A stretch of 34,879 bases of DNA from Chlorobiaceae bacterium (GTDB lineage: Bacteria; Bacteroidota; Chlorobiia; Chlorobiales; Chlorobiaceae), in NCBI GenBank assembly GCA_013334435.1, contig JAAXXP010000011.1:1-34879 (forward strand), in the 5' to 3' direction. Below, piece by piece: positions 21,732-24,122 of this stretch; within the stretch, counting starts at the first letter, position 1, and every line of letters begins with the position of its first letter. The notes under the pieces are model-generated. The model did no database searches, was not told the origin of the DNA, and was given only the letters and a program-made list of their open reading frames with translations. The position numbers were made by a program, and so were the translations under genes.

Positions 21732-22166
21732 TTATTTGAAGAACTCGTTAAGCGTGTAGGTGCGCCGGTCGATCTCAACGCACAACTCCCTGTTGAGCGA
21801 ATTGTAAAACACCGGGATATCCCTCATGGTCCACTTAACGCCCCGCTTGTCGAAATCGATCACATAGCGGTTTTCGTTATCGAGAACCTTCTGTTCGAGA
21901 TTGATGGCGATGTCGGGCTGGGTGGTCAGCACATAGAGTTCAATCTCTCCGGCGATGAGTCTGCTGATCATCTCTTTGGTTGGAGAGAGCTTTGTCCTTC
22001 CGGATGCAGGGCATATTTCAAGTTGAAGGCGGTCGTTCCGGTCTCTCTTGGCCGAAGTAATGAAATACTTTTGGGCTTTGTGGACTGCGTTCCCCGACCA
22101 GGGACCCGAGGTGCTTGACCGTACCTGGTTTTCTCCGGTAAATGGTCGACTGAGCTGAGGTTGCAT
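21732..22166 (-). CDS. Conserved-looking hypothetical protein
   Basis: This 144-residue frame (from ATG 22166) is not recognised. An in-frame GTG at 22175 would add three residues. The first 30 residues are Ser/Pro/Gly-rich and probably disordered. The rest alternates short hydrophobic and charged segments ([49 protein letters not shown]) that look beta-rich, with no signal peptide or membrane helix. The terminator placement and normal codon use suggest a real gene. The nearby ACACAC/GTGTGT hairpin at 22198-22213 lies upstream of the start and may be regulatory. Confidence 0.65.
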
Positions 22167-22434
22167 CGTTTGCACATGATTTGGATTGGCAAATAAAACA
22201 CACAGCGGTGTGTACCTTCAACAATACCCAAGTTAGCAAAACATCGTCAAATAAAAAAAAGATTCGGTTTGAATCCCTCCAGACGCCATCTTCTGCGCTT
22301 TTCCGGGTTTTTGCGAAAAGCCTTTCCGGTTAAGGGTCCTCTTTTTTTTGTTCTTTTTGGTTTATAAAGCCTTTTTTATTACTTTTGAGGTAAACGATGA
22401 CAGCATAGTAAGCGTGCGAATGTGTTGTGTATCG

Positions 22435-22532
22435 TCCCGCAGTCCCCGAAGTGTTTTTCCGTATCTCCTTGCAGTTTCATAGCAGTCGACCTGTTGGATA
22501 ACCCCTCCCCCAGTGAGGATGGTGCAGCTATG
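22435..22532 (+). promoter_or_regulatory. Conserved 5' leader of small-protein unit 1
   Basis: This stretch aligns with 22938-23034. Shared blocks include CAGTCCCCGAAG, TGCAGTTTCATAGC and TTGGATAACCCC, then TGAGGAT before the start codon. Between the blocks the bases differ, and one possible stem changes from CTG/CAG here to TTG/CAA in the second copy. Conservation outside coding sequence suggests a functional RNA or operator rather than drift. No known riboswitch class is recognised. Confidence 0.6.
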
Positions 22533-22640
22533 ATTCCCCAACTGTTTACCGATGTGCTGATTCTCTCGGCATGGTATTTCTCCTTAGGGATCTTTTTCAG
22601 CGTATTCTTGCTCAGATGCCGCAAAAAAAGGGGCGATTGA
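22530..22640 (+). CDS. Small single-pass membrane protein, copy 1 (36 aa)
   Basis: A 36-residue protein starting MIPQL, with one hydrophobic helix (about residues 8-28, DVLILSAWYFSLGIFFSVFL) and a basic tail RCRKKRG. GTGAGGAT lies upstream as Shine-Dalgarno. The frame is open further upstream, but the homologous second copy has an in-frame stop there, which fixes MIPQL as the start. It shares 22 of 36 positions with copy 2, and both have DxLxLSAWY and LGxFF. The shape resembles type I toxins or small subunits of membrane complexes. No family is recognised and the function is unknown. Confidence 0.72.
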   Translation: MIPQLFTDVLILSAWYFSLGIFFSVFLLRCRKKRGD

Positions 22641-22696
22641 GTTATGAGCATCGATGTTCCGGGAGAGGCTGCCTTTGCACCAGTGGCTTGTCGCCG

Positions 22697-22730
22697 AAAC
22701 CCGTCTGTGGAAGCGGCCCTACGGGTTTTT
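22697..22730 (+). terminator. Terminator after small-protein unit 1
   Basis: AAACCCGT and ACGGGTTT form an 8-bp stem with a 16-base loop, followed by further T. A second possible stem (GCCGG/CCGGC, then TTTTT) follows at about 22783-22813. Together they close unit 1 as its own transcript. Confidence 0.7.
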
Positions 22731-22825
22731 CCGTAATGCGCTAAGAAAGCTGAAAAAGCGCATCCGAAAAGCCTTTGCTGCCGGTTGATGCCAACGTCCG
22801 GCACTCCCTTTTTATTCTTGCTGTC

Positions 22826-22856
22826 AAAAATCACTATTTATAATAAAATGATTTTT
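22826..22856 (+). promoter_or_regulatory. AT-rich dyad with -10 box upstream of unit 2
   Basis: AAAAATCA (22826-22833) and TGATTTTT (22849-22856) are reverse complements around a TATAAT at 22839-22844. This may be an operator enclosing a promoter for unit 2. A second weak promoter (TTGTAT, 16 bases, TAGTAT) lies near 22870-22897. Confidence 0.4.
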
Positions 22857-22903
22857 TTTATTATTGCTTTGTATATCAAAGTAATTTTGATAGTATTCGG
22901 GTG

Positions 22904-22936
22904 AACGGCGGTTACTCTGAAAATAGCGCCGTTTTT
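22904..22936 (+). terminator. Terminator-like hairpin directly before unit 2 leader
   Basis: AACGGCG and CGCCGTT form a 7-bp stem with a 16-base loop, followed by TTT. It stands immediately before the conserved leader of unit 2, so it could be a transcription attenuator or the end of an incoming transcript. Unit 1 lacks the same hairpin. Confidence 0.5.
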
Positions 22937-22937
22937 C

Positions 22938-23034
22938 GTCCGTCAGTCCCCGAAGCGCCTTCGGTATATCCGTGCAGTTTCATAGCCCCCTACTTGTTGG
23001 ATAACCCCTTCCCCATGAGGATATTGCAACGATG
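22938..23034 (+). promoter_or_regulatory. Conserved 5' leader of small-protein unit 2
   Basis: This is the second copy of the leader at 22435-22532, with the same ordered blocks. Here CCGAAG and CTTCGG (around 22950-22964) make a perfect 6-bp hairpin that is weaker in copy 1. The block GTTGGATAACCCC and the Shine-Dalgarno ATGAGGAT are kept. Whether the RNA or a DNA-binding site is conserved cannot be decided from two copies. Confidence 0.6.
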
Positions 23035-23151
23035 ATTCCACAATTGTCCAATGATTTGCTGGTTCTTTCAGCATGGTATTTGTTTTTAGGTTTTTTTTTC
23101 AGGATGTTTCCTTTACGGCGTCGCCCCAAAAAAGGGCAGGTTGAGTTATGA
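23032..23151 (+). CDS. Small single-pass membrane protein, copy 2 (39 aa)
   Basis: A 39-residue protein, paralog of the one at 22530. It starts MIPQLSND, has one hydrophobic helix (about residues 9-28, with LLVLSAWYLFLGFFFRMF), and a strongly basic tail RRRPKKG ending QVEL. The Shine-Dalgarno is TGAGGAT, and a stop codon 18 codons upstream in frame confirms the start. Substitutions between copies are mostly conservative in the helix, and both keep Trp-Tyr at 15-16, which supports selection on the protein. It is too short for standard gene finders and easily missed. Function unknown. Confidence 0.75.
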   Translation: MIPQLSNDLLVLSAWYLFLGFFFRMFPLRRRPKKGQVEL

Positions 23152-23190
23152 TCTTCGGTGCCTGAAAGGATTTTTTGCCCGTACAATGCA

Positions 23191-23222
23191 GCCGGCAGGC
23201 GATGAGCCTTCCGGCTTTTTTT
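23191..23222 (+). terminator. Terminator after small-protein unit 2
   Basis: GCCGG-x-AGGC pairs with GCCT-x-CCGGC (one mismatch, 5-base loop), followed by seven T. It ends unit 2 about 40 bases after its stop codon. Confidence 0.88.
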
Positions 23223-23446
23223 GTTTTTCTCTGTACGCGGGGGTACTGGGGATGTCGCCCCTCTTTTTACGGAAAAATCATTATCTTCAGCGTAACACCC
23301 GATATTCCGGACAGTTCCGTTCGTAAACCCTGTCAGCTTTTTCGCGGTATGGCCGCCAAACTGTTTCGCTTCAGGAAAATTCCTTTTGCAGGTACAAGCG
23401 CCGCACCGGCCGCCGGTTTTCGCCCTTCGGAAGGAGCTGATTTCTG

Positions 23447-24070
23447 ATGGCTCCTTTCGAAATCCAGCATTATGCGAGTTTCGTTTCCTCGATCCTGCTT
23501 TTCCAGCTCATGCCCGGACCGGGCACCGTGGTGATTCTCGATACCGCTGGCCGGTGCGGCAAACGGGCGGGATTGGCCGCAGTCGCAGGGACGCTTGCGG
23601 GCGACTTCGTTTACATGCTTGCCGCAGTGACCGGTCTTGCCACGTTCATGCCGGACGGGTATTCGCTGTTGCAGATCTTGCAGTGGATCGGGGCAGGGTA
23701 TCTCTGCTGGATCGGATTGCAGCAGTTCCTTGCCGGCGGCAGGCTTTGTGCATGCAGGCAGGTGAGCACGAACGTTTCGCACGCTTTTTCACGCGCTTTA
23801 GCCGTAAGCCTTACCAATCCGAAGGTCGTATTGTTCTTTTTTTTCTTTTTTCCGCTCTTTCTGCTTCCCGGTGCATCAGGTTTCACTCTCATGGCCATGA
23901 TGGCGCATGTCACCATTATCAGCTTCGTCTATCAGGCAGGCCTCGTGCTTATGGGCAGCATGGCGACATCCCGGTTTGCCGCCATGCCGAAAGTTCATGG
24001 TCTTGCACGGCGGATCGCCGGTCTTGCGCTCATCGGCTTCGGCGTCAGGCTCGCCTTCGCGAGCAGGTAG
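23447..24070 (+). CDS. LysE/RhtB-family exporter
   Basis: A 207-residue inner-membrane transporter with about six hydrophobic segments. The family signature FQLMPGPGTVVIL follows the first helix (about residues 19-31), and SLTNPKVVLFFFFFFP (about 121-136) matches the second conserved loop. Members export amino acids such as lysine, homoserine or threonine; the substrate here cannot be told. The ATG at 23447 is preceded by AAGGAG. The C-terminal half ends RLAFASR. It is convergent with umuC and not obviously linked to its neighbours. Confidence 0.9.
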   Translation: MAPFEIQHYASFVSSILLFQLMPGPGTVVILDTAGRCGKRAGLAAVAGTLAGDFVYMLAAVTGLATFMPDGYSLLQILQWIGAGYLCWIGLQQFLAGGRLCACRQVSTNVSHAFSRALAVSLTNPKVVLFFFFFFPLFLLPGASGFTLMAMMAHVTIISFVYQAGLVLMGSMATSRFAAMPKVHGLARRIAGLALIGFGVRLAFASR

Positions 24071-24122
24071 TCTCCTTCGGGCGAGTTTTTCCCTGTACCC
24101 GCAACCCCGGGTTTTCCACTTT

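Follow-up and report, generated by a model that had tools for sequence, protein, structure and literature searches.

Two adjacent units in the window (the whole stretch of 34,879 nucleotides analysed, from contig JAAXXP010000011.1 of a Chlorobiaceae bacterium) are tandem copies of a stand-alone gene, and we tentatively read its family as membrane proteins that resemble type I toxins and are controlled at the level of translation. The resemblance to type I toxins is drawn from a single helix with a basic tail, tandem copies, a narrow taxonomic range, decaying copies and a leader element. Since the defining features of a type I system are the antitoxin RNA and the toxicity, resemblance and not membership is claimed here. 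On the genomes searched so far, the family is restricted to one genus, and the window units are two copies of it.

Tandem units and their locus

The region 22427-23222 is made up of two units with common blocks in equal order, offset by 502-504 nt; blocks of 25, 56, 92 and 33 nt are 84%, 84%, 76% and 82% identical, respectively. Comparison of the window region with itself using blastn aligned 169 nt at 78.7% identity (E 3e-27), which bears out the tandem duplication described in the original prediction. The 36- and 39-codon genes that it listed are present at 22530-22640 and 23032-23151, and its count of 22 common residues out of 36 fits the 61% identity measured between the unit 1 and unit 2 proteins. 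The features of the two units are as follows:

22438..22529, + strand: unit 1 leader, common to unit 2 and the genome G001 (repeat blocks, alignment, blastn)
22502..22511, + strand: unit 1 C-tract (CCCC T CCCCC); its final run begins at -23 relative to the ATG (sequence; family statistics)
22515..22518, + strand: unit 1 GAGG, Shine-Dalgarno-like, able to pair with CCUC of the C-tract (centroid fold, not above shuffles)
22530..22640, + strand: unit 1 gene, single-helix protein of 36 aa (ORF, profile searches)
22700..22729, + strand: possible unit 1 terminator hairpin (z -0.89)
22780..22814, + strand: possible second unit 1 terminator, GCCGG..CCGGC followed by a T-rich stretch (weak, z -1.07)
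22942..23031, + strand: unit 2 leader (repeat blocks, alignment)
23005..23014, + strand: unit 2 C-tract (CCCC TT CCCC); its final run begins at -21 (sequence)
23032..23151, + strand: unit 2 gene, single-helix protein of 39 aa (ORF, profile searches)
23190..23222, + strand: predicted unit 2 intrinsic terminator, hairpin and U-run (-21.2 kcal/mol, z -1.5)

A terminator had been proposed for each unit; that of unit 2, a hairpin with a U-run, stands, whereas the unit 1 candidates are weaker (z -0.9 and -1.1). Over their first 105 coding bases the two genes differ at 35 positions (19 third, 10 first and 6 second codon positions), and dS between them is saturated.

Two smaller elements were also seen. 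A small hairpin spans the codons for LxLSA in both ORFs (22553-22573 and 23057-23073); two one-sided changes, a silent one and an Ile to Val replacement, leave it intact. The imperfect palindrome CTTTGTATATCAAAG lies at 22867-22881, 5' of unit 2, and in G001 its reverse complement lies at the 5' border of the conserved leader.

The relative G001 has a single unit at the equivalent locus, where leader and ORF together are 75% identical over 153 nt; the leader is kept, and the ATG and the Asp are lost in a gap of 30 nt against unit 1. In seven further relatives (L179-L185) the equivalent flanking gene has no unit 5' of it, and the units therefore look gained in the window lineage or lost in the others. 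The units adjoin pscD, with feoB nearby. This divergent neighbour (21732-22175, - strand) is a P840 reaction-centre gene (Pfam E 3.5e-87) present in 64 of 65 same-genus genomes. Against about 22270-24100 of the window, in G063 (L179) the pscD upstream region reaches an impB/mucB-type polymerase gene (78%, 420 aa) after about 240 nt, with neither a LysE-type gene nor a unit between pscD and the polymerase gene; because both are missing there, the LysE gene and the units may be one segment, gained here or lost elsewhere.

Range and copy number of the family

The initial single-protein search of the 65 same-genus genomes returned a few distant look-alikes, which had in common an Asp, hydrophobic residues, Gly/Ala-Trp-Tyr, Leu-Gly and a basic tail. 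Profile A2 matched in 30 of the 65 genomes at E<=0.05, some of these matches being plainly due to chance. The original prediction was to be given up if no genome held further copies; profile A3 located 56 places in 23 of the 65 same-genus genomes at E<=0.02, the other 42 having no match at that threshold. Copy number rose to 10 in one genome, G008 (rated 7% contaminated). The other genus of the family gave no match in 21 genomes, and in the rest of the order two of 12 genomes, from another family, matched weakly (E 0.004 and 0.009); one of these two loci, L172, was viewed and was not convincing as a member. Using profile A2 on a phylum sample of 296 genomes, 18 genomes outside the genus matched weakly (E 8e-4 to 0.05), and neither of the two loci viewed among these matches resembled the family. 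With one family member as query, phages yielded no match and plasmids yielded five, all at E 3 or more.

Because members had entered the profiles by their own score, a held-out test was made with profile A4, built from eleven members without the window units and without the G001 copy at the window locus. In G000, the genome of the window, only the two units fell below E 1 (4.4e-5 and 5.3e-4; the next match 1.42), a test that is not fully independent because the eleven members came from searches with unit 1 or with A2, a profile that contains it.

Pfam, NCBIfam, PHROGs, PADLOC and PDB held no trusted match for family members. The type I toxin families named in Pfam include Ldr, Hok, Fst, Ibs, TisB and others, and no such model was among the families matched by 32 members at E<=0.1. 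The lack of a trusted match in Pfam, NCBIfam and PHROGs thus assigns the members to no named toxin family.

Start codons of members were set by rule, as the first ATG 10-22 codons before the Trp, and this choice affects leader positions. Locus L170, which is without the Trp, was dropped, the weak matches L171 and L172 were kept out of the member set, and the leader counts below leave out G001:C31 and L165, both of which are without an ATG.

Protein features and selection

Members have a median length of 38 aa (23-70 as cut, decayed copies included) and agree with the description of type I toxins as small hydrophobic, usually single-helix proteins under 60 aa. In 43 of the 54 members with an ATG, hydropathy over a 19-residue stretch peaks at 1.6 or more, and in 53 of these 54 positive charge is greater on the C-side than on the N-side. 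The Trp is invariant and the Asp near-invariant in 32 aligned members, which were chosen by pattern.

Judged from dN/dS, purifying selection is shown to act in most orthologue pairs, the value being below 0.6 in 30 of 32. At one locus, 21 pairs ranged from 0.09 to 0.59; ten of 11 further pairs ranged from 0.04 to 0.72, and the remaining pair reached 1.51, probably because start codons were set differently. A lack of selection on the protein had been named beforehand as evidence against the original prediction; the family values refute that condition; the window pair is itself saturated in dS.

The leader and its C-tract

A C-tract just 5' of the ATG is shown, at the level of sequence, in about 60% of leaders and is a new observation. 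CCCC occurs in the last 60 nt before the ATG in 29 of 49 non-redundant leaders compared with 21 of 199 control genes, taken from the family loci (p 4e-12). CCCCC was found in 23/49 leaders and 7/199 controls, and GGGG in 3/49 and 27/199, respectively. In neighbouring 60-nt stretches of the members CCCC occurs in 3, 2, 8, 6 and 5 of 49 (3/49 for the next 60 nt upstream), and in intergenic 60-mers of family loci in 59 of 492. When proteins were grouped at 55% identity by single linkage, a majority of leaders had CCCC in 13 of 23 groups (p 1e-6 versus controls). CCCC is missing from 20 of the 49 leaders, including those of a subfamily with a clear Shine-Dalgarno sequence.

The last C-tract starts between -18 and -15 in 16 of the 30 leaders with a tract, seven of these 16 being orthologues from one locus. 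Both window tracts (-23 and -21) lie outside this mode, with GAGG between the tract and the ATG. In the last 40 nt, members carry Shine-Dalgarno-like words less often than controls do (6/50 versus 66/199). The C-tract is predicted to be unpaired (probability paired < 0.5) in 28 of 32 members with a tract, a count made without a shuffled control, and may therefore be accessible to an RNA or a protein. Pairing of the tract with a fixed partner in the mRNA was considered and rejected, as the partners vary and the tract is unpaired in those 28 of 32 members (again without a shuffled control).

The conserved leader of about 95 bases that had been described holds between the units and G001; in much of the wider family, a short C-tract is the common element instead. 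A structured or covarying leader was not upheld. Both window leaders fold in an ordinary way relative to shuffles (z 0.17 for unit 1 and 0.52 for unit 2). In unit 1, GAGG and the start codon are predicted to be paired, GAGG with part of the C-tract and the ATG within a TCATAGC/GCTATGA helix; unit 2 retains little of either pairing. For nine orthologues from one locus, RNAalifold returned a weak consensus (-1.6 kcal/mol), confined to the coding part, in which one of 14 pairs had a two-sided change. Searching Rfam 15 gave no match at gathering score in the window, and a permissive search of 22150-23330 gave two matches (E 1.2 and 3.4), both below gathering scores. That the leader might be part of a longer protein was rejected, since the frame is open in unit 1 and broken by a 1-nt difference in unit 2.

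Promoters were scanned in 52 of the 56 members, leaving out two without an ATG and two too near the locus end. The mean z was 0.48 for sense and -0.3 for antisense promoters; the latter were no better than shuffles, with z>=2 in one of the 52 members. Their commonest position was -100 to -51 (17/52), from where an RNA would be driven away from the leader. At the locus of the nine orthologues above, the -10 box of the best sense promoter lies at -37 to -40 in seven members, of which only two have a z of 2 or more. The window has four promoter-like sites compared with 1.3 in shuffles, and a 9-of-12 minus-strand site at 22879-22851, between the units, is directed into unit 1. A trans RNA pairing with the leader over a long stretch was sought in G000 and rejected: the three 3-mismatch matches beyond the units equal those of the reversed control (three), a search that a short seed would escape. 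The antisense RNA over the leader that the original prediction envisaged thus found no backing, neither in the antisense promoters of the 52 members nor in the leader matches in G000, which are at background.

Tandem pairs, decay and genomic context

The family has multiplied both in tandem and at dispersed sites. Tandem pairs occur at five loci: the window, G067:C85, that of G008:C16 and G030:C1, G070:C26, and the locus of G035:C23, G070:C56 and G084:C23. At this last locus (L123, L129 and L126) the pair consists of two subtypes and is kept in three genomes, and in one of these subtypes a Shine-Dalgarno-like sequence lies between AACC and GGTT, which could pair. Decayed copies are found in G016 (in-frame TGA), G067:C75 (truncated) and G001 (ATG lost).

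The nearest downstream gene of the 56 places is convergent in 31, on the same strand in 20 (at 73 nt or more) and not seen in five, and on the upstream side 33 places have a divergent nearest gene, 20 have one on the same strand (at 115 nt or more) and in three none was seen; these distances are approximate because genes were taken as the longest ORFs. No neighbour at operon spacing was seen. Gene context varies from subfamily to subfamily. One subfamily is convergent to an AP_endonuc_2-type gene, with an ABC ATPase gene nearby, in nine genomes, in seven of which an Nramp gene lies on the opposite side (the Pfam names come from one locus). Other subfamilies are near glutamate-kinase-like or lipocalin-like genes, named by eye.

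Comparison with known systems

Translation of type I toxins is often, although not universally, restricted by leader structure. Ldr is a single helix with a basic tail. In E. coli, according to an excerpt of PMC4147584, LDR encodes a 35 aa protein and exists as three tandem repeats and a fourth, each repeat encoding Rdl. The tandem units with proteins of 36 and 39 aa described here resemble this arrangement, as far as the excerpt describes it; they differ in that an Rdl accompanies each LDR repeat, whereas here no antisense RNA was found and Pfam gave no Ldr match. The search in which ZorO was discovered looked, among other things, for small hydrophobic proteins duplicated in tandem, and the 5' UTR of zorO hides the ribosome site by secondary structure (PMC8309996, in excerpt). 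The 5' UTR of zor in E. coli O157:H7 controls translation (PMC11264685, in excerpt). The tandemly duplicated small hydrophobic protein is thus common to the ZorO/OrzO system of E. coli O157:H7, in what these excerpts give of it, and to the window; a difference is that the zorO 5' UTR is folded over the ribosome site, whereas the window leaders fold no better than shuffles. Part of the type I or riboregulated pattern that had been proposed for the units, a leader beside a tandem single-helix protein, agrees with how ZorO was found (PMC8309996, in excerpt), and its other part, the antisense RNA and the structured leader, found no support here. A report of a type I system or of this protein family in Chlorobium was not found in the open-licence literature.

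Small membrane regulators such as AcrZ, MgtS and KdpF are alike in having one helix and fewer than 60 aa. They are known as single copies, whereas the window family is multi-copy, patchy and partly decaying.

Putative function

In the toxin-like reading, the protein would reside in the inner membrane, its basic tail facing the cytoplasm. Translation would be kept low at the leader by a putative RNA or protein repressor, with the C-tract as contact point, and would be released under some condition; the protein would then act on the membrane itself and lower membrane potential or growth, in the manner of type I toxins. Several results count against this reading. Antisense promoters in the 52 members and leader matches in G000 are at background, the leaders fold no better than shuffles, no named toxin family is matched, and 20 of 49 leaders are without CCCC. 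Conservation at one locus in nine genomes would moreover be expected of a useful, non-toxic protein as well. The main rival is a non-toxic small regulatory or accessory subunit that, in the manner of AcrZ, KdpF and MgtS, would bind and tune larger membrane proteins such as transporters or the complexes of the reaction centre or of electron transport. We regard it as possible, though somewhat less probable than the toxin-like reading. It would account for the purifying selection, for the invariant Trp and near-invariant Asp of the 32 aligned members, for the constant pair of neighbouring genes that one subfamily keeps in nine genomes (with Nramp in seven), and for the position of the window units next to pscD and near feoB. 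However, no neighbour is at operon spacing and neighbours differ by subfamily, 42 of 65 same-genus genomes are without a match at E<=0.02 while one has 10, and some copies have decayed.

The cationic tail and the multi-copy, tandem and diverging genes might also suit exported or surface peptides, whether leaderless bacteriocin-like or for signalling, whose copies diversify after duplication. This seems improbable, given a clear membrane helix whose C-side positive charge suggests a membrane anchor and no candidate export or immunity gene at operon spacing. Repeats that are selfish or degenerating, and whose ORF has little function, would be in line with the decayed copies, the patchy presence and the seven relatives without units at the window locus, but are hard to reconcile with the 30 of 32 orthologue pairs that have dN/dS below 0.6 and with a C-tract retained across divergent subfamilies, and we give them little credence. 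The toxin-like reading is therefore preferred, tentatively.

The family is a sizeable one, mostly of proteins under 60 residues, without a trusted match in Pfam, NCBIfam, PHROGs or PADLOC, and it occurs in a photosynthetic genus. A specific hypothesis follows from its leaders, namely that the C-tract by the ribosome-binding position may be a control site common to unlinked genes. An unlikely but consequential extension is that one trans-acting G-rich RNA or C-tract-binding protein might silence many dispersed copies by covering the C-tract beside the Shine-Dalgarno position. If true, this shared silencer would serve a whole family of tiny membrane toxins as their one antidote; in the open-licence literature searched, no type I system was seen for this genus.
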